From Alkalinema sp. FACHB-956 (GTDB lineage Bacteria; Cyanobacteriota; Cyanobacteriia; Leptolyngbyales; Leptolyngbyaceae): a DNA stretch of 64,000 nucleotides. The notes under the pieces are model-generated. The model saw nothing but the letters and a program-made list of their open reading frames with translations, did no database searches and was not told the DNA's origin. Positions 6,069 to 16,777 of this stretch are shown here, piece after piece. Position 1 is the first letter of the stretch; the number at the start of each line of letters is the position of its first letter. The translations under genes and the position numbers were made by a program. The stretch covers positions 1 through 64,000 of the forward strand of contig NZ_JACJRC010000007.1 in assembly GCF_014697025.1 (NCBI RefSeq). Reading direction: 5' to 3'.

Positions 6069-7316
6069 TTAGGACAAAAGTTCTTGAAACAGCTTCTGGT
6101 AGCGCTGGGCTTGCTGGGTCAGGGCGAAGGATTTTTCAGCATGGGCACGGGCTTGGGGCCGCAACGGTTGATCGGTCATCAGCACCCAACGAATCCCCTG
6201 GGCTAAGTCCTGGACGCGATAGGGTTGGGCCAGATATCCCGTTTCACCGGGAATAATCATATCCGGCATCCCACCAATTTTGAAAGCCACGCAGGGGGTA
6301 CCACAGGCGAGGGCTTCTAAGACCGTATTGGGCAAATTATCTTCCAGGGACGGTGCGACAAACACGTCCGCTGCGGCATAGGCCAGGGAGAGGGAAATTT
6401 CATCGCCCAAGGTGCCTAAGTAGTGGGTGGGAAAGCCCAAATCCGGCGGAACTTCGGGCCGTGATGCACCAAAAATCACCAGTTCAGGCCGTTGGGGCCA
6501 CGATTGTTGGCTCAAACTTTGCAACGCAGCTTGCAATACATGGAACCCTTTACGTCGATCGCGGGTCGCATCCGCCGCACCAAAGAGAATTAATGGTACA
6601 TCCAACGGTAAATTCAAGATTTGGCGAACGAGGGCGCGATCATCAACGCGATCGTAGGGGCGATACCGTTGTAAATCGAGGCCATAGGGAATCACGGTAA
6701 TGCGGGAATTCTTAAGCAAAGAACTTTGGGCAGCGCATTGGGCTAACCAGCGGCTGGGCGTCACGACCGTTAGATTGAGTCGTTGCCAAGCCCGCTGCTT
6801 CCGCTGCCAAATCCAATGGGAGAGATCTCGTTTTTTGGAGCTACTAAGCTTTGGGCAAGCACCACAGGTCTGCTCGTAGCGATCGCAGCCATCGCTGTAG
6901 TGACAACCGCCGGTGAAGGCCCACATATCGTGCATCGTCCAGACGATCGGTAGCCGGAGTTTACGCAACGTTTCCAGCCGCAGGAAGCCACTGCCCACCC
7001 AATGGAGATTGACAATATCCGGTTGAAGGGCGGTAATTTGCTGGTTGAGAGGTTCCGGTAACCAAGCGGGGGAATAGCGATCGATCTGCCGTTGCCGGTA
7101 GAACCCTAGGGGCAAGCCATCAATCCCAGGCCGCAGGAAGGCAATAGTTTTCTGCACTTTGCTGCGGGGGGCAATCACGGTTCGATCGTCACTGGCTTTG
7201 TTTTGTACCAGCATTTGGGAGGCTAAGCCGATTTCCTGCAAACCCTGGTGTAAGCGATAGGCCGCCCGTGCTGCGCCTCCGGTGATGTCGTACGTGCTGA
7301 GCAAGAGCGGTTTCAT
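6069..7316 (-). CDS. Glycosyltransferase, GT4-like
   Basis: A 415-residue GT-B glycosyltransferase. The N-terminal GGAARAAYRLHQGL glycine loop and the C-terminal PSLEDNLPNTVLEALACGTPCVAF segment (E-x7-E type) mark a GT4/GT1-like retaining enzyme that uses a nucleotide sugar at the cytoplasmic face. A Cys-rich patch at about 140-157 (CHYSDGCDRYEQTCGACPKL) is typical of a subset of polysaccharide GTs. Its start overlaps the upstream methyltransferase stop by 4 bp (ATGA), so the two are translationally coupled. As the last glycan gene of the Pse series it probably builds the same glycan. Donor and acceptor are unknown. Confidence 0.85.
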   Translation of the reverse strand: MKPLLLSTYDITGGAARAAYRLHQGLQEIGLASQMLVQNKASDDRTVIAPRSKVQKTIAFLRPGIDGLPLGFYRQRQIDRYSPAWLPEPLNQQITALQPDIVNLHWVGSGFLRLETLRKLRLPIVWTMHDMWAFTGGCHYSDGCDRYEQTCGACPKLSSSKKRDLSHWIWQRKQRAWQRLNLTVVTPSRWLAQCAAQSSLLKNSRITVIPYGLDLQRYRPYDRVDDRALVRQILNLPLDVPLILFGAADATRDRRKGFHVLQAALQSLSQQSWPQRPELVIFGASRPEVPPDLGFPTHYLGTLGDEISLSLAYAAADVFVAPSLEDNLPNTVLEALACGTPCVAFKIGGMPDMIIPGETGYLAQPYRVQDLAQGIRWVLMTDQPLRPQARAHAEKSFALTQQAQRYQKLFQELLS

Positions 7317-8143
7317 GGTTTGACCGCCTCCATAAACAATGAATCGGGTTTGCGGATCTGTCCTTGCAGAATGTCTAGCCCAAAGTCATTAAAGTTAGGA
7401 ATCCGACTTTCCGTTGCCTGACAGACCTGAATTTCTATAAATCCCGTTTGGCTGAGTAATTGCTGAAGGGAAAAGCGATCGTACATCCAGCGGTGAAGTT
7501 CTCCGGAATTACGAAAGAGACCTTCCTGGAAACCTTTCTGAGCCTGCTTTCCGGCAATGAGTAAGACGAACAATTCAGCAATTTTGATCCGAATTTTTTG
7601 AAGATACCAAGCAGGTCGTTTAGATTTAATTTTTTGCCATCGAGTTAGTTGTTTTGCTTGATAATAGTTATCGATTTCTGCGCCCATGCGCGATCGCACA
7701 AAGTCTAGGGTTAAGTCTGCATTGGGAGCATTGAGTCGATCGAGATACTGTCCCATCTCTCCCCCGCCATGGGTCCGGGTCATTTGGTCTAATAGTTCCA
7801 AAAGCATCCAATCATACTGCGCGATCGCTTGAGAATCACCAGATAGAGATTGTTCTAACGTTGCTAAGTATAACCGTGCAATCTGTTCTAAATCCGGTAC
7901 TATGACTCTCAAAATTCCACCGGGTTTCAGTACTCGAAAGGCTTCAGCAATTAAAAAACTTGCTTGGGCTGGCTGCAAATGTTCCAAAACGTGGGAGCTG
8001 TAGCACACGTCACAGGTTCGATCGGCAAAGGGCAAGCCGCGCCGAATATCAAACGATCGAACGGCTGACGAACTGGGGACTAAGTCGAGATTAATCCAAT
8101 CTGGGTGTAAAGTTTGGCCGCAGCCAATATTAATCAGTTTCAT
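7313..8143 (-). CDS. Class I SAM-dependent methyltransferase
   Basis: A 276-residue methyltransferase. Motif I is INIGCGQTLHPDWINLDL (residues 4-21), motif III/IV includes CDVCYSSHVLEHL, and EAFRVLKPGGILRVIVPD follows, the standard Methyltransf_11-type order. An insertion at about 130-200 is variable and basic. It overlaps the downstream glycosyltransferase by 4 bp and lies 80 bp beyond the preceding transferase candidate. The context suggests sugar O- or N-methylation, but the substrate cannot be read from sequence. Confidence 0.82.
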   Translation of the reverse strand: MKLINIGCGQTLHPDWINLDLVPSSSAVRSFDIRRGLPFADRTCDVCYSSHVLEHLQPAQASFLIAEAFRVLKPGGILRVIVPDLEQIARLYLATLEQSLSGDSQAIAQYDWMLLELLDQMTRTHGGGEMGQYLDRLNAPNADLTLDFVRSRMGAEIDNYYQAKQLTRWQKIKSKRPAWYLQKIRIKIAELFVLLIAGKQAQKGFQEGLFRNSGELHRWMYDRFSLQQLLSQTGFIEIQVCQATESRIPNFNDFGLDILQGQIRKPDSLFMEAVKP

Positions 8144-8223: not shown

Positions 8224-9210
8224 TCAATGGCGGTTAGCGAGTTTTGCAGGAAACACCGATCGAATCTTTCTAGTAACCCGCGCAGTATAGCCTGATATTT
8301 GCTGTTTTGGTCGCCAACCCAATAACAGTACTAATTCCTCCGGTGTTTTCTGATAGTTAGAACCCACGGTTTGCCTGCCCCAAGCTTCATGGGAGGTCGC
8401 CTCCATCGGTGAGACAAAAAACTGAGGAAAGCGTTGGCGGATTTGGGTTTCGTGGAAGATTTCTAGATGTTTTTGTAAGAGTTCTGGATATAAGCGATAC
8501 CAAGGATCATGCTGGAATTCGCTCATCTGGGGGGATGCATATTTGCCATCGATCGACACCCGACAACCAGAATAAGCAGCATAGGCAATGTGAGAACCGA
8601 TGACATTGGAAGTCACGCAATCAAAGCTACGGAAAATAATATTCATCCGAATTAGTGCATTGCGATCGTCGGTAGTTGCTCCGGTAATCCAAGGAATTTG
8701 ATAGTGATCTAGAACAGGAATCCAATATCCTTTCTCTATGCAGGAACCATGGATGCAAAATACAATATCTGAAAAATCGGTTTTCCATTGTAAGATATGT
8801 TTTACATAGTCTTCCTGATCAACCTGCTGTTCCGTATAGGCAGAGGAATGGGAAGGCATGACCAGTAGGGTGTTAGGCTTGCGATCGACGGCTTGTAAGT
8901 TGCCGTAAATGAAGGGTAAACCGGCTGCATAAACCCGCTGAAAGCCGAATTTCTGAAGGATTTGGACTTGGTCTTGGGTGGTCACTAAAACGGTGTCTTG
9001 CGGCTGCCCCCAAAAGGTGAGTTCGCGGGGATGGGTAATCGGATCGGTGTAAATCCAACCATGGAGCCAGTGGGCAAAGCTGCGGGGTGGTTTGGGCCGA
9101 TCGACGGCCTGGGCAATCAAATGGCTAATGCCGTAATAATCCGGTTCGCTGCGGAGCCGAATCCGTTCAATAGGAGGTAATTGTTTTGTTAACCATTCGA
9201 TCGAAGCCAT
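8224..9210 (-). CDS. Unrecognised protein, possible GT-B surface-sugar transferase
   Basis: A 328-residue soluble protein that I cannot assign to a named family. No signal peptide or membrane segment is seen. A central stretch, DCVTSNVIGSHIAYAAYSG (about 197-215), then RVSIDG, resembles the donor-site helix and following strand of GT-B enzymes such as capsule and sialic-acid transferases; this is a resemblance, not a proven homology. It sits directly after pseI (89 bp) and before a methyltransferase-GT4 pair, where a nonulosonic-acid transferase would be expected. The N-terminal 60 residues contain PDYYGISHLIAQAVDRP. It could instead be a modifying enzyme of the same glycan. Confidence 0.5.
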   Translation of the reverse strand: MASIEWLTKQLPPIERIRLRSEPDYYGISHLIAQAVDRPKPPRSFAHWLHGWIYTDPITHPRELTFWGQPQDTVLVTTQDQVQILQKFGFQRVYAAGLPFIYGNLQAVDRKPNTLLVMPSHSSAYTEQQVDQEDYVKHILQWKTDFSDIVFCIHGSCIEKGYWIPVLDHYQIPWITGATTDDRNALIRMNIIFRSFDCVTSNVIGSHIAYAAYSGCRVSIDGKYASPQMSEFQHDPWYRLYPELLQKHLEIFHETQIRQRFPQFFVSPMEATSHEAWGRQTVGSNYQKTPEELVLLLGWRPKQQISGYTARVTRKIRSVFPAKLANRH

Positions 9211-9244: not shown

Positions 9245-9314
9245 GATACCGCCGTAATTGTGATACCGCCGTAATTGTGAAGCCTCTAAGCTAAGAGTTC
9301 TAAGCTAAGAGTTC
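9245..9314. repeat. Two adjacent tandem duplications at the pseI stop
   Basis: A 17-bp unit GATACCGCCGTAATTGT occurs twice (9245-9261, 9262-9278). Next to it a 14-bp unit TAAGCTAAGAGTTC occurs twice (9287-9300, 9301-9314). The second copy of the latter contains the pseI stop codon (9300-9302), so the duplication straddles the end of the gene. The copies are perfect, suggesting recent events. Confidence 0.9.
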
Positions 9315-10370
9315 CCAATTCATCGGCGTTCCAGCCTTGACTGCGCAACGAAGGGATTTGCCTAAAAGCTGATCGTAGTATTTGGGCGGCAGACCTAAAC
9401 CGGGGCGGATCGATCTCAGGTTTTCCGGCGTTAAGACCGCTCCGGGTTGCAAGTCCTGGGTGATGTAGAGCGATCGACGAAACTGGAGGGACTTGGTTTC
9501 TGCTGCGGTGGGGCCGTAGCTGATTTGACCGAGGGCCAGGGCGGCTCGCTCCGTTTCAGTGACGAGTTGTGCCATCTCCTCCGGTTCCATGGAAAAGGCC
9601 GCATCGACGCCACCGTCCGATCGTCGCAGGGTGAAATGTTTTTCAATCACCGTCGCGCCCAGGGCCACACTGGCCACAGCCACCCCAATGCCCAGGGTGT
9701 GATCCGATAAGCCCACTTGCACGTTAAATAACTCCCGCAGGTGCGGAATCGTGAGCAAATTAGAATTTTCGGGGGTGGCGGGATAGGTGCTGGTACATTT
9801 CAGCAAAATTAAATCCTGACAACCCGCCTCCCGCGCCGTTCTGACCGCTTCATCCAATTCCGCGATCGTCGCCATGCCCGTGGACATAATCATCGGTTTT
9901 CCGGTTTGGGCGACTTTGCGAATTAATGGTAAATCAATATTTTCAAAGGAGGCAATTTTGTAACAGGGTACAGCAAGCGATTCCAGAAAGTCCACCGCAG
10001 TGGCGTCGAAGGGTGAACTGAAGCCAATCATACCCAAGTCGCGACAGCGCTGAAAAATTGGCTCGTGCCATTCCCAAGGGGTGTAGGCTTGCTGGTACAG
10101 GTTGTACAGGGAATTGCCCTGCCAGAGGCTGTCGGCGTCGTGAATCCAGAATTCCCCCTCCGCCAGATCCAGGGTCATGGTATCCGCAGTGTAGGTCTGG
10201 AGTTTGAGGGCGTGGGCACCGGATTTTGCTGCTGCTTCGACGAGTTCCAAGGCCCGATCGAGGGATTGGTTATGGTTGCCCGAGAGTTCGGCAATAATAA
10301 ACGGCGCGGTGTGCGATCCGATCGACCGACTTCCAAGGTAAATTCTTTCTAGTGACATTTCAGATTCCAT
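9300..10370 (-). CDS. pseI: Pseudaminic acid synthase (NeuB family)
   Basis: A 356-residue NeuB/PseI enzyme that condenses a 6-deoxy-AltdiNAc-type sugar with phosphoenolpyruvate to make a nine-carbon nonulosonic acid. Motifs are IIAELSGNHNQSLDRA near the N terminus, ALKLQTYTADTMTLD, KIASFENIDLPLI, MIMSTGMATIAEL, LKCTSTYPATPEN, GLSDHTLGIGVAVASVALGA and EKHFTLRRSDGGVDAAFS. The C-terminal SAF (antifreeze-like) domain has RSLYI..DLQPGAVLTPENLRSIRPGLGLPP. The RSIRPGLGL signature and the neighbouring pseBCFG support pseudaminic rather than N-acetylneuraminic or legionaminic acid. ATG 10370 is used; ATG 10358 is also possible. It lies 28 bp after the WbqC-family gene. Confidence 0.9.
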   Translation of the reverse strand: MESEMSLERIYLGSRSIGSHTAPFIIAELSGNHNQSLDRALELVEAAAKSGAHALKLQTYTADTMTLDLAEGEFWIHDADSLWQGNSLYNLYQQAYTPWEWHEPIFQRCRDLGMIGFSSPFDATAVDFLESLAVPCYKIASFENIDLPLIRKVAQTGKPMIMSTGMATIAELDEAVRTAREAGCQDLILLKCTSTYPATPENSNLLTIPHLRELFNVQVGLSDHTLGIGVAVASVALGATVIEKHFTLRRSDGGVDAAFSMEPEEMAQLVTETERAALALGQISYGPTAAETKSLQFRRSLYITQDLQPGAVLTPENLRSIRPGLGLPPKYYDQLLGKSLRCAVKAGTPMNWELLA

Positions 10371-10398: not shown

Positions 10399-11106
10399 TT
10401 ACGGGTTCATAGTTTTTCCTGTGAGCACATATTCTGAGGCTCGCTCCCAACCCAAATTAGCAATCACATCAACTATGGATAAGTGACTGATAAAATGAGC
10501 TGTTTTCAATTGTGGATAGGGCTGAGGATTATAATCTTGGAAAATCAATCGAGTTGATGATGCTTCAAAAACCCGGTCTGCAATAAGATACTCTTGAGAC
10601 CCAATCGGACTTAAATATTCATCACATTGACAAGCTTCACACAGGTTGTAGAGATGCTGTGATCGTTTTCCAGATACTCCAACTTCACTAGCACGGATGA
10701 TTTTAGGATTTAAATTTAGTTGATTTGCAATCCAGGTAATAATCTGAACATTGAGATCCACCAAAAGTTTAAATGATTCATTGAGAAGAATTTCTGTCAA
10801 ACCGATCAAACAATCAGCATAGGGAGCTTTGGAATAAGCTTGACTAATTGTTTGAATATGTTTTTTTCGCCATTTTTGTCCATTATCTAATTGAATCGTC
10901 GAAATAGATTCAACTCCATACTGAGAATGAACAGGAACGGTAAGCCAGCATTCTTGACCGTTTAATAAGATCCGATTCCGACTTTGCCAGGATCTCCGCT
11001 CAAACTGAACATCATCCAAAATGATGAATATATCAGCCTGAGTCATCAAGTTAAAATAACCTGCCCAAGGAAGATAAGTTGGCTGCATAATAACGCATCG
11101 CATCAT
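10399..11106 (-). CDS. WbqC-family protein
   Basis: A 235-residue WbqC-like protein. The N-terminal CVIMQPTYLPWAGYFNLM and DIFIILDDVQFERRSWQSRN blocks and the later SEVGVSGKRSQHLYNLC and EYLSPIGSQEYL blocks are family hallmarks. WbqC homologues occur in O-antigen and nonulosonic-acid clusters, and some have been proposed to take part in N-acylation of amino sugars; the reaction is not settled. The gene is visibly more AT-rich than its flanks and has no CGATCG, unlike most of the window, suggesting later acquisition. It is 2 bp from the upstream methyltransferase and 28 bp from pseI. It is a candidate to supply or modify the N-acyl group that PseH would normally add. Confidence 0.82.
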   Translation of the reverse strand: MMRCVIMQPTYLPWAGYFNLMTQADIFIILDDVQFERRSWQSRNRILLNGQECWLTVPVHSQYGVESISTIQLDNGQKWRKKHIQTISQAYSKAPYADCLIGLTEILLNESFKLLVDLNVQIITWIANQLNLNPKIIRASEVGVSGKRSQHLYNLCEACQCDEYLSPIGSQEYLIADRVFEASSTRLIFQDYNPQPYPQLKTAHFISHLSIVDVIANLGWERASEYVLTGKTMNP

Positions 11107-11108
11107 TC

Positions 11109-11708
11109 TTACCGACGATAGATATAAGTTGTGAACTCAAAGGGGATGATACCTGGTTTCAGTTGGTAGTCATTGCGTAAGACCACGTAGGGAGATAGGT
11201 GCTCCTTAGCGAACTTAAAAACGACCTCAGGATATTCATAAAAAAGTCCTTGATCATAGTAGTCAACATAATGACTTAGTAAATTAAATGCCAATCCTTT
11301 ACGAGCGCGGGAAAAACATTCTGTGAGAGTGGACTGGTAAAATAGACGGTTATTTTCAACCAAATTGTTGAAAACGCCACTAATCAGAACATAATCAAAT
11401 TTCTCTGAGGGGGTAATTTCATCCATCTGACAAAAACGAAACTCAGGATATTTTTTCTGGCCACACTGAAGTACTTCAGACACAATATCCACACCAGTAT
11501 AATTAACGGAAATCTCTCTGGATTTTAAATAGTTTGCTAGATGTCCTGTCCCACAGCCAAAATCTAGAATGCTTTGGTCATGGAGGTCAGCAATTTCTGT
11601 AAGAATTGCAAAACGATTTTCTTGAGTCTCTCGATCGCGCCATTGGGATGCTTCTGGTGAATCTCCATACTGGAGAAAAAGGTTGCGATAGTGTTCTACT
11701 AGATTCAT
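11109..11708 (-). CDS. Class I SAM-dependent methyltransferase
   Basis: A 199-residue methyltransferase with motif I ILDFGCGTGHLANYLKSR (about 48-65), acidic strand YTGVDIVSEVL, and FDYVLISGVFNN as motif IV. The C-terminal part (ARKGLAFNLLSHYVDYYDQGLFYEYPEVVF) resembles trans-aconitate or small-molecule methyltransferases seen in sugar-modification loci. It is AT-rich with a single CGATCG (near 11635). It is tightly packed with WbqC (2 bp), and a 67-bp spacer separates it from the second methyltransferase upstream. It probably acts on the Pse glycan or its nucleotide-linked precursor; the substrate is unproven. Confidence 0.8.
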   Translation of the reverse strand: MNLVEHYRNLFLQYGDSPEASQWRDRETQENRFAILTEIADLHDQSILDFGCGTGHLANYLKSREISVNYTGVDIVSEVLQCGQKKYPEFRFCQMDEITPSEKFDYVLISGVFNNLVENNRLFYQSTLTECFSRARKGLAFNLLSHYVDYYDQGLFYEYPEVVFKFAKEHLSPYVVLRNDYQLKPGIIPFEFTTYIYRR

Positions 11709-11775: not shown

Positions 11776-12399
11776 TTACTTTTTCAAGGTGATCAGAAAA
11801 TCATTGGATTGAAAGGTCTGATTTTGAAATGTTGTGATGTATCTATCTATGTATAAAAAATTAAGATTCAATGGTTTGAAAATTGACTCAACCTCTACTT
11901 GAGAGAAGCCATGTAATCCCAGGGTATTGTTCTGCTGAATCCTAAAATCAACCTCGCTAGCAAACAGAAAAAATCCTAGTCCCCCCGATCGAAGAACTCG
12001 ATAAATTTCCCTAATGCCTTTTTGTACAGTTGCTAATCCAGCAGCTTCAAATACGCTACAACTGATAATTAGATCGAAAAAATCATCCTCGTAATTGAGT
12101 TGGTCGAGGCTAGCTACCTGTAAATCTGCCACAAGACTAGCAGACTGCAGCCGCGATCGAGTGTTGGCGACCCCAACCTCAGAGATGTCACAGCCGTAGG
12201 CTTGAAATCCCTCCGATGCTAGGAAATGGGTATGGACTCCGCTGCCGCAGCCAAGATCTAGGACGCGGGTCTGAGCACGATCGGCGATCGGAAAATTCCG
12301 AAATACGAATTGAATTACTTTTTCATGGGGGTACTTAGGCCCTTTTGACTGATTCCAGGAATTCCAGATATGCTGATGTTCTTTCATTAAACTTTCCAT
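11776..12399 (-). CDS. Class I SAM-dependent methyltransferase
   Basis: A 207-residue methyltransferase. Motif I is VLDLGCGSGVHTHFLASEGF (about 45-64), then YGCDISEVGVANTR and DDFFDLIISCSVFEAAGL, then IREIYRVLRSGGLGFFLF. It lies 15 bp after pseG, as expected for a gene of the same operon. Two consecutive but dissimilar methyltransferases suggest two different methylation positions, or one N- and one O-methylation, on the glycan. Unlike its WbqC-side neighbour it has several CGATCG sites. Confidence 0.8.
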   Translation of the reverse strand: MESLMKEHQHIWNSWNQSKGPKYPHEKVIQFVFRNFPIADRAQTRVLDLGCGSGVHTHFLASEGFQAYGCDISEVGVANTRSRLQSASLVADLQVASLDQLNYEDDFFDLIISCSVFEAAGLATVQKGIREIYRVLRSGGLGFFLFASEVDFRIQQNNTLGLHGFSQVEVESIFKPLNLNFLYIDRYITTFQNQTFQSNDFLITLKK

Positions 12400-12414: not shown

Positions 12415-13479
12415 TTATCTAGTTAGTTGGTGAATCTTTTCGATTACTCGTGTGACTCCTAATCCATCAATAAACTGCTGGCCTTGAATTGACATCGCCC
12501 CTAGATGAAGTGGATCACTTAGAAACTGAGTGATTTGCGCTGCTAAGGATGGAACAGTTAAGCCAGAAGCTTCTCCCAAAAAATAGTTAATCCCGTGATT
12601 ATGCATCGCTTCAGCGACCCGAATTTGTGTAGGATGAGTCGCAATAATCATTGAAGGAACCCCTATGCAGGCTAACTCATATACTGTAAAACCACCTGCA
12701 CTGATAGCTACATCTGCCCAATCCATTTGTGATGCCATATTAGAGATGTCGTGCAGGCAGGTTATAGTATGTTGAGGAGCTGCATTAATTTGTAATTGAA
12801 TGTCTTCCCAGTATGGACAACCAATGCCGATAACAACTCTAACTTCTAGCGATTGATTAATAGATTTCAGTGCTTTTATAACAAGAGAAGTCATGTTGCT
12901 GGGATCGCTGCCGCCCATAGTAATTAATAGTGTCTGGGCGACATTGCAACGATTTTGTCTGTGATTTTGTCTTTGAGATCGTGTTTGCCAAAACTCCGAT
13001 CGCAGTAAAAGATAGTCGATTCCCAAGAGTTGGAGACAGTGACTAGGTAACAGCGATTGGTATTGGGCATGGCGATCGTCAGCAAGATTTTGATCTAGTA
13101 GTAAGTCACAGTCATGATCACGATCTGCCAAATCATCCAGGACTAAAATCTTTTTGATATAAGGACGAATCAGTTGTTCCCACGATCGACCAATTTGATA
13201 GTGATCAACAATCAGCCAGTCAATTTCGCTTGAGTATTGCTGAATTACTGAAATGGTGGCTTGTGCATCGACAGAATGATTCCAGGCTACGCATCCTCCT
13301 AGCCGAACTACCTGAAAACCTTGATTTCTGATTTTATGCTCAAGATTTTCCAACAGTGTTTTACAGATAAAAAAGACCTCAGATCCCTGGAATTGTAATG
13401 CTGTTGCTAGTGTCAGACAGCGCATAATGTGCCCTGTTCCAATTTCTACAGAAGCGTCTGCACGAATTGCTACTTTCAC
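12415..13479 (-). CDS. pseG: UDP-2,4-diacetamido-trideoxy-beta-L-altropyranose hydrolase
   Basis: A 354-residue PseG homologue, a GT-B-fold (MurG-like) hydrolase that removes UDP from the Pse precursor. The N-terminal AIRADASVEIGTGHIMRCLTLA (about 4-25) carries the catalytic His region GTGHIMRC; LVLDDLADRDHDCDLLLDQN and LLITMGGSDPSNMTSLVIKAL are typical; ISAGGFTVYELACIGVPS is the UDP-binding loop. The family is often fused to, or followed by, the PseH GNAT acetyltransferase. Here the length matches the hydrolase alone, and the next genes are methyltransferases. Its start overlaps the pseF stop by 4 bp. Confidence 0.9.
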   Translation of the reverse strand: MKVAIRADASVEIGTGHIMRCLTLATALQFQGSEVFFICKTLLENLEHKIRNQGFQVVRLGGCVAWNHSVDAQATISVIQQYSSEIDWLIVDHYQIGRSWEQLIRPYIKKILVLDDLADRDHDCDLLLDQNLADDRHAQYQSLLPSHCLQLLGIDYLLLRSEFWQTRSQRQNHRQNRCNVAQTLLITMGGSDPSNMTSLVIKALKSINQSLEVRVVIGIGCPYWEDIQLQINAAPQHTITCLHDISNMASQMDWADVAISAGGFTVYELACIGVPSMIIATHPTQIRVAEAMHNHGINYFLGEASGLTVPSLAAQITQFLSDPLHLGAMSIQGQQFIDGLGVTRVIEKIHQLTR

Positions 13480-14215
13480 ACCACAGTCTCCATCAACGGC
13501 TTTTGTCTAACATGAGCATTAATCGCCACTAATTCTGGCTTTTGCTGAAGTAAATCAATGATGCTATGTAAATTAAATTGAGGCTTGGCTGAATACAAGT
13601 GTTCTAAAATGCAGCGAATTAATTCAAAATCTTCTGAAGTATCTACAGTTAATCGATAGGGGGCGAGTAAGCAATCCTGGATAACGGTATAGATATGATA
13701 TCGAGAGGGCTGTTGGTAGATAAACGGTGTGACATGTTCTCGATGAGTAGGATGGGTTGCTTCTTTATAGGTTCCTTCTAGAACCCGCATTGAAAAAACT
13801 TCGACATCCATTCCCCGTGGATAACTCACTTCATCGGTTACAATATAGTCCAAGTTGGGAGCGTTTTGTTGATAAATGGCAATTACTCGATCGATCAGTT
13901 CTGGATCAATCAACGGGCAATCTGAAGTCACTCGCACAATGACCTCTGCGGCAAATTGCGTAGCGGCTTCATAGTAGCGGGCTAGGACATCCTCTTCTGA
14001 ACCACGATATGTGGGGATGGAGAGGCGATCGCACAGATCAACGATCGGCTGATCCGTTTCATTGACCGTCGTCGCAATCACGATCTGATCCGCCAGAGAA
14101 ACCCGCTGAAGTCGCTCCAGTTGATACTCCAGTAACGGTTTCCCCAGCACTGTTTTCAACACCTTACCGGGCAAGCGGGTTGAAGTCATTCGAGCTTGTA
14201 CAATGATGACGGTTT

Positions 14216-14219
<4 letters not shown>
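13476..14219 (-). CDS. pseF: Pseudaminic acid cytidylyltransferase-type protein (SpsF/PseF)
   Basis: A 247-residue nucleotidyltransferase of the CMP-KDO/CMP-sialate synthetase superfamily. It begins IIVQARMTSTRLPGKVLKTVLGKPLLEYQLERL, the LPGK/KPLL signature for CTP binding, and has IVRVTSDCPLIDPELIDRV with the catalytic Asp and YPRGMDVEVF. The form is closer to SpsF than to classical NeuA, which is common in Pse clusters from environmental bacteria. It would activate the nonulosonic acid as CMP-Pse. It overlaps pseC and pseG by 4 bp each, so the three are coupled. Confidence 0.82.

Positions 14220-16777
<2,558 letters not shown>

Follow-up and report, generated by a model that had tools for sequence, protein, structure and literature searches.

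A candidate family of GT-B CMP-ulosonate transferases encoded beside pseudaminic acid synthase in cyanobacteria

Which enzyme attaches pseudaminic acid (Pse), a bacterial cousin of sialic acid, in Alkalinema sp. FACHB-956? Few nonulosonic acid (NulO) transferases are known, and the question is raised by a pse locus in the 64,000-nt stretch of DNA analyzed here (the window). The locus lies on the minus strand and is bordered by pilT-like and dnaX-like genes, both named by eye from their ORFs. In the order of transcription it encodes the dehydratase PseB (15379..16404; TIGR03589, 551 bits, cut-off 408), the aminotransferase PseC (14216..15421; TIGR03588, 571 bits, cut-off 424), a cytidylyltransferase in the place of PseF, the CMP-NulO synthetase (13476..14219; PF02348, 113 bits), a PseG-like UDP-sugar hydrolase (12415..13479; TIGR03590, 287 bits, cut-off 154), two SAM methyltransferases (11776..12399, PF08241 and related; 11109..11708, PF13489 and related), a WbqC-like protein of unknown function (10399..11106; PF08889, 227 bits), the pseudaminic acid synthase PseI (9300..10370; TIGR03586, 507.1 bits, cut-off 340), the candidate CMP-pseudaminate transferase that is the subject of this study (8224..9210), a further SAM methyltransferase (7313..8143; PF08241, tblastn) and a group-1 (GT4-type) glycosyltransferase (6069..7316; PF13692/PF00534/PF13439). 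The WbqC-like gene occupies a position between pseG and pseI that in other loci belongs to the gene for a GNAT acetyltransferase (L017, 11424-11942) or for a formyltransferase (L043, 12111-12683). Elsewhere in the window, a short ORF at 288-605 looks by eye like part of a NACHT-type NTPase.

The cytidylyltransferase matches no NCBIfam equivalog at cut-off, PseF and KdsB included, so the CMP-Pse synthetase of the locus would belong to a non-standard subfamily. WbqC is also present in the pse loci L055 and L094, and no PseH scores over its cut-off in the genome; WbqC may be the N-acyltransferase of these pse loci. The GT4-type gene is the only other glycosyltransferase gene between the dnaX-like and pilT-like genes, in agreement with a preliminary description of this DNA, in which the locus showed no second clear transferase for CMP-sugars. 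The whole genome contains no match to PF05159 (KpsC/KpsS type), PF04464 (TagB/TagF type) or PF04413 (WaaA) at the thresholds used.

The candidate ORF runs from an ATG at 9210 to a stop codon ending at 8224 and encodes a protein of 328 amino acids, P0001. An equally long open run has a chance of ~1.5e-7 at the base composition of the window, and intact homologues in other genomes confirm the ORF as a gene. It starts 89 bp downstream of the pseI stop codon. The same gap holds a short tandem duplication (9246-9279, a 17-base unit present twice), and a second near-repeat lies beside the pseI stop. Both the coordinates and the neighbor had been given correctly in the preliminary description, as had the statement that the protein matches no family: P0001 drew no match from NCBIfam at E up to 1, nor from Pfam or PDB sequences at E up to 10. 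The wider family gave no match of note either, and a search of PDB by sequence profile yielded only chance matches. Neither P0001 nor the L007 relative matched any viral contig, phages showed no match, and plasmids yielded a single weak match in Azospirillum (E 0.02). Among the open-licence papers listed in literature searches, none was recognized as describing the family.

Structure prediction shows what kind of protein this is likely to be. The AlphaFold2 model of P0001, built from six sequences (mean pLDDT 86.9, pTM 0.86), has a two-domain GT-B architecture comprising a small N-terminal α/β domain, a C-terminal Rossmann-like domain (from residue ~111 onward) and a helical tail. The model of a relative from a Helicobacteraceae locus (L021; 37-38% identical) has nearly the same order of elements (pLDDT 83.7, pTM 0.84). 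In a Foldseek search with the P0001 model, 13 PDB rows reached E<=0.001 and all were GT-B proteins, with low whole-chain TM-scores (0.28-0.43 by query). WaaA and UDP-GlcNAc 2-epimerases took the top rows (E 3.1e-5 and 1.0e-5) at 14-16% identity. We used only these 13 rows and the VIA-align Z-scores, as further down the Foldseek list GPCRs appear among the GT-B enzymes (E ~1e-3). By VIA-align, where Z 7-8 is stated to be typical of models without a clear match and rows within 1 are tied, the best score for P0001 was 10.1 (4zht, a UDP-GlcNAc 2-epimerase; 224 residues, 4.1 Å), with TagF at 9.4 over 238 residues and a Bcs3-CMP complex at 9.0; the L021 model scored 9.6 with a UDP-GlcNAc 2-epimerase (219 residues, 4.1 Å), then 9.1 with TarL/TagF and 8.6 with Bcs3. 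The VIA-align lists of both models are filled with GT-B proteins. A fold search of BFVD returned viral glycosyltransferases and nothing specific.

P0001 thus almost certainly has a GT-B fold, as judged from the models, and very probably is a glycosyltransferase. The solved structures closest to it come from GT-B enzymes of various kinds (UDP-GlcNAc 2-epimerases, TagF/TarL, WaaA and Bcs3); because so many GT-B families appear among them and rows within 1 are tied, the fold does not tell the donor. No GT29/38/42/52/80, GT99/107/140 or GT118 structure was among the 50 fold matches listed, which excludes nothing.

To the fold can be added a set of conserved residues, read from 27 family rows, two of which (P0001 and L024) stand for one gene, so that 26 genes are represented. 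H50 of a WLHG motif (W48-G51, codons at 9058..9069, minus strand) is present in 27/27 rows and G51 in 26/27; in the model, H50 follows a short strand in the N-terminal domain. H121 of a PSHS motif (P119-S122, codons at 8845..8856, minus strand), kept in 26/27 rows, belongs to the C-terminal domain, in the loop that follows its first strand. The segment SNVIGSHIAYA (S201-A211, codons at 8578..8610, minus strand), described earlier as a GT-B-like helix, comprises the end of a strand (196-201) and a helix (206-213) of the C-terminal Rossmann-like domain in the model; S206, a Ser or Thr in 26/27 rows, stands at the start of that helix. Y26 and D182 are each kept in 26/27 rows and C152 in 25/27. 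D182 is the only acidic residue conserved at >=85% of the rows, no Glu reaches this level, and the invariant set contains no DxD. Motifs of known transferases are rare in the family and absent from P0001: the sialyltransferase motifs (K/R)xHP and [D/E][D/E]G occur in 4/27 and 3/27 rows, and the QxxxD that would follow the first C-terminal strand in retaining Kdo transferases occurs in 2/27, with PSHS in its place in P0001.

A contig scan with three sequences gave the loci of five confirmed relatives: L019 (48% identity), L020 (Verrucomicrobiia, 42%), L021 (Helicobacteraceae, 38%), L022 (Verrucomicrobia, 35%) and L023 (Leptolyngbya, 27%). A SAM methyltransferase also lies downstream of the relative in L019, L020 and L023 (tblastn). 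Some relatives are larger proteins in which the candidate-type domain forms the N-terminal part; in L007 it is joined to an FkbM methyltransferase domain, in L010 to one of GT4 type; the L020 protein has a C-terminal extension with no Pfam match at E 1e-5. In the genome of L022, the distance to NeuB is ~19 kb, provided that contig C1 and the contig of L022 are one and the same. The L021 relative is part of a pgl-like locus, and NeuB is found on another contig. By eye, L021 3718-17381 has the look of pgl-type N-glycosylation, with oligosaccharyltransferase-, PglC- and PglD-like ORFs.

We then have counts at the level of the cyanobacterial class. Profile A4 matches 19/388 genomes at E<=1e-3 and 16 at E<1e-20; the count of 16 leaves out three genomes (G194, G221 and G255; E above 1e-20) that were later grouped with picocyanobacteria, and it includes five genomes from one genus (g92) and three from another (g41). 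PseI (TIGR03586) scores over its cut-off in 46/388 genomes of the class: 14 of the 16 carriers vs 32 of the 372 others (Fisher 1.5e-12). Counted by genus, from lists compiled by hand, the association is 7/9 vs 19/151 (p 4e-5). A PseI or NeuB gene lies within 10 kb of the family member in 13/16 cyanobacterial carriers; in the exceptions, NeuB is 18 kb away (G155) or PseI is 33-39 kb away (G058 and G147). In Verrucomicrobiota, 8/240 genomes carry the family and six of these eight have NeuB/PseI within 10 kb. Of the remaining two, G560 has no NeuB/PseI near, although a PseF-like cytidylyltransferase that scores below the PseF cut-off is encoded 1.5 kb upstream, and G607 has no recognized ulosonic-acid gene nearby.

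In the 46 genomes with PseI, the 6 kb downstream of it contain a member of the candidate's family in 12 cases and a PF05159-like GT-B gene in 10, but the two never occur there together (hypergeometric P 0.03 for exclusivity), counts to be read with the fact that many of these genomes have <6 kb of sequence downstream and three (G177, G243 and G272) <2.3 kb. The argument is weakened because the seven proteins behind the PF05159-like profile come from six of the same ten genomes that it counted. In a Pfam scan, PF05159-like proteins from five of these genomes (G314, G117, G219, G172 and G007) pass the curated cut-off, one (G355) falls below it and two (G107 and G151) give no match; those of G180 and G215 lay outside the scan. 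Six loci (L062, L064, L067, L069, L071 and L102) have a PF05159-like GT-B protein, mostly of 480-520 aa, in or near the slot. PF05159 is the KpsC/KpsS family. The Acinetobacter Pse transferase, GT118 KpsS1, and KpsC/KpsS are CMP-ulosonate enzymes, the former reported as a KpsC homologue (PMC12887879). The candidate's family thus stands where, in other genomes, a Pse transferase of a known kind would be encoded, and the PF05159-like proteins of these loci are themselves candidate pseudaminyltransferases of the GT118/GT107 kind.

A distant branch of the family is linked to another acidic sugar, Kdo. Three weak picocyanobacterial matches retain the YG, HG, HS/HT and GxH elements, and a profile that includes them finds the family in 16/151 genomes of that picocyanobacterial family. 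The Kdo-8-phosphate synthase KdsA is present in 61/151 of these genomes, in 15/16 carriers vs 46/135 non-carriers (Fisher 4e-6). In the 15 carriers, KdsA is always on the same contig as the family member, 0.19-0.86 kb away in 11 and 9.0-14.4 kb away in 4. These 15 cases are not independent, since in the tree the KdsA-linked members form one clade (support 100/100, on a long branch) and hence represent about one evolutionary event. The sixteenth carrier, G670, groups with NulO-type rows, also on a long branch. WaaA (PF04413) is found in none of the 16 carriers and over its cut-off in two of 13 KdsA-bearing non-carriers tested; as the other 11 likewise have no WaaA over its cut-off, its absence was dropped as proof of Kdo transfer. 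The simplest reading is that the KdsA-linked clade probably transfers Kdo. Because Kdo is a second ulosonic acid, we refer to the family as CMP-ulosonate transferases and not only as pseudaminyltransferases.

How does the family compare with known systems? WaaA (GT30) shares the GT-B fold and took a top Foldseek row, but its Pfam model PF04413 does not match P0001 (E up to 10). UDP-GlcNAc 2-epimerases also are GT-B proteins in the top rows; P0001 has neither a PF02350 match nor a conserved Glu. Maf flagellin NulO transferases transfer Pse in flagellated bacteria. Unlike them, P0001 matches no Pfam family whatever at E up to 10. With the KpsC/KpsS type the family shares its position, since in other cyanobacteria PF05159-like genes fill this slot next to PseI, yet P0001 has neither a PF05159 match nor (K/R)xHP; the comparison with this type covered the PF05159 profile and PF05159-like cyanobacterial proteins. 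An hhalign comparison of the family with seven cyanobacterial PF05159-like proteins gave a probability of 0.1, and no PF04464 relatives for a profile comparison were found in 59 genomes.

The retaining Kdo transferases GT99, GT107 and GT140 (WbbB, KpsC and KrkA) are GT-B enzymes that likewise have a small N-terminal domain and a helical C-terminal part (PMC12887879), and to which the KdsA-linked clade adds a relation to the Kdo pathway. The Asp nucleophile of KrkA lies in the motif QTLND (same source), which would be located after the first C-terminal strand; unlike these enzymes, P0001 has PSHS there instead of QxxxD and lacks (K/R)xHP. The TagB-like Tannerella forsythia proteins GtfS and TFUB4_00887, whose knock-out results in loss of terminal NulO (PMC6388019), resemble the candidate in its proposed NulO role, and TagF/TarL are among the nearest folds of the P0001 and L021 models. 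According to their description, these proteins have D/E-D/E-G and HP motifs and 442-445 aa, whereas the candidate's family does not conserve the motifs. The same two motifs, (K/R)xHP and D/E-D/E-G, as described in PMC12887879, PMC7439481 and PMC6388019, also separate it from the bacterial sialyltransferases (GT38/42/52/80). The preliminary description had pointed to sialyl-, KDO- and pseudaminyl-transferases as likely relatives. This expectation was not supported: sialyltransferase-type motifs are not conserved, and the fold searches singled out none of these enzymes. Fold and type of reaction are familiar, but judging by the libraries and open-licence papers searched, neither the sequence family nor its catalytic set seems to have been described.

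We propose that P0001 is a GT-B transferase that moves Pse from CMP-Pse to an acceptor on a surface or exported glycan, and put the probability of this prediction at roughly three in four. That relatives adjoin the synthases of two different acidic sugars indicates an undescribed enzyme family, which we predict, with good likelihood, to consist of CMP-ulosonate transferases. We see the scales as evenly balanced on a broader proposal, namely, that ulosonic acids of nine carbons (Pse/NulO) and of eight (Kdo) are both transferred, from CMP-activated donors, by one GT-B family, with a PseI/NeuB-adjoining branch in cyanobacteria and Verrucomicrobiota, a KdsA-adjoining branch in picocyanobacteria without recognizable WaaA, and an HG, PxHS and D set unlike those of known sialyl-, Kdo- and pseudaminyl-transferases. 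The preliminary description had taken the protein for a candidate NulO transferase of an unnamed family, a view that a model lacking a GT-B fold, or homologues mostly outside NulO loci, would contradict. The models of both P0001 and the L021 relative have the fold, and homologues are found mainly in ulosonic-acid loci, kdsA being within 14.4 kb on the same contig in 15/16 picocyanobacterial carriers; the prediction is thus supported.

In the mechanism that we envisage, the neighboring PseB, PseC, PseG, PseI and cytidylyltransferase would make a Pse derivative and activate it as CMP-Pse. CMP-Pse would bind in the interdomain cleft with its CMP held by the C-terminal domain, through the PSHS loop after the first strand and the GSH at a helix N-terminus, the latter for the phosphate. 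A hydroxyl of the acceptor, perhaps a sugar added by the adjacent GT4, would be activated by His50 or a neighbor and attack C2, upon which CMP leaves; His50, contributed by the N-terminal domain, may be the general base or an acceptor contact. We infer a single displacement because the family conserves no residue equivalent to the aspartate that serves the retaining Kdo enzymes as nucleophile, a sequence argument that weakly favors inversion of configuration. The reaction would be metal-independent. Methylation of the sugar or of the end of the glycan is suggested by the methyltransferases encoded in the locus and by the fusions to FkbM.

Among other readings, the one that survives best, although we think it improbable, is that P0001 is a GT-B transferase that acts on the same glycan with an ordinary NDP-sugar as donor, the NulO being moved by the GT4 next door or by an enzyme encoded elsewhere in the genome. 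Polysaccharide loci encode several transferases, the best structural rows are NDP-sugar enzymes, and the L021 relative sits in a pgl-like locus with no NeuB in the DNA examined around it. Adjacency also calls for caution because of B. subtilis SpsB, a GT-B protein encoded beside Leg genes and not needed for Leg transfer (PMC7439481), so that a gene of this type beside NulO genes need not encode the NulO transferase. However, the family tracks an ulosonic-acid synthase in cyanobacteria and Verrucomicrobiota and KdsA in picocyanobacteria, which is unexpected for an NDP-hexose enzyme. The filling of the PseI-downstream slot by PF05159-type genes elsewhere and the lack of a PF05159, PF04464 or PF04413 match in this genome at the thresholds used also speak against this reading.

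It is very unlikely that P0001 is a non-transferase that uses the GT-B fold for another step of the sugar pathway, for instance as an epimerase or hydrolase of nucleotide sugars, even though UDP-GlcNAc 2-epimerases give the top structural rows for both models (Z 10.1 and 9.6). UDP-GlcNAc 2-epimerases depend on conserved Asp and Glu residues, whereas D182 is the sole acidic residue of the family conserved at >=85%, and the Epimerase_2 family (PF02350) does not match at E up to 10. Moreover, PseB, PseC, PseG and PseI are already encoded in the locus, and the family adjoins both PseI and KdsA, whose precursors differ. Least probable of all is a polyol-phosphate transferase of the TagF/TarL type, which would take CDP-glycerol or CDP-ribitol as donor and likewise release CMP: the structural scores (Z 9.4 with TagF for P0001, 9.1 with TarL/TagF for the L021 model) and an HG motif in the N-terminal domain, which is reminiscent of the catalytic His of TagF, stand against the absence of a PF04464 match (E up to 10) and against contexts that, where read, show linkage to ulosonic-acid synthases and no sign of teichoic-acid genes.

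A CMP-Pse transferase of this type would bear on more than one locus. Recently described CMP-ulosonate transferases have founded new families, GT118 for Pse and GT140 for Kdo (PMC12887879). If the HG/PxHS/D set is catalytic, the family described here would represent a further way of handling CMP-ulosonates, and an enzyme of the P0001 type could serve as a tool for making Pse-glycans. As the family can be recognized by sequence, it would allow NulO loci of cyanobacteria and Verrucomicrobiota to be completed, and it offers a specific candidate for the missing Kdo transferase in picocyanobacteria that have kdsA and no recognizable waaA.
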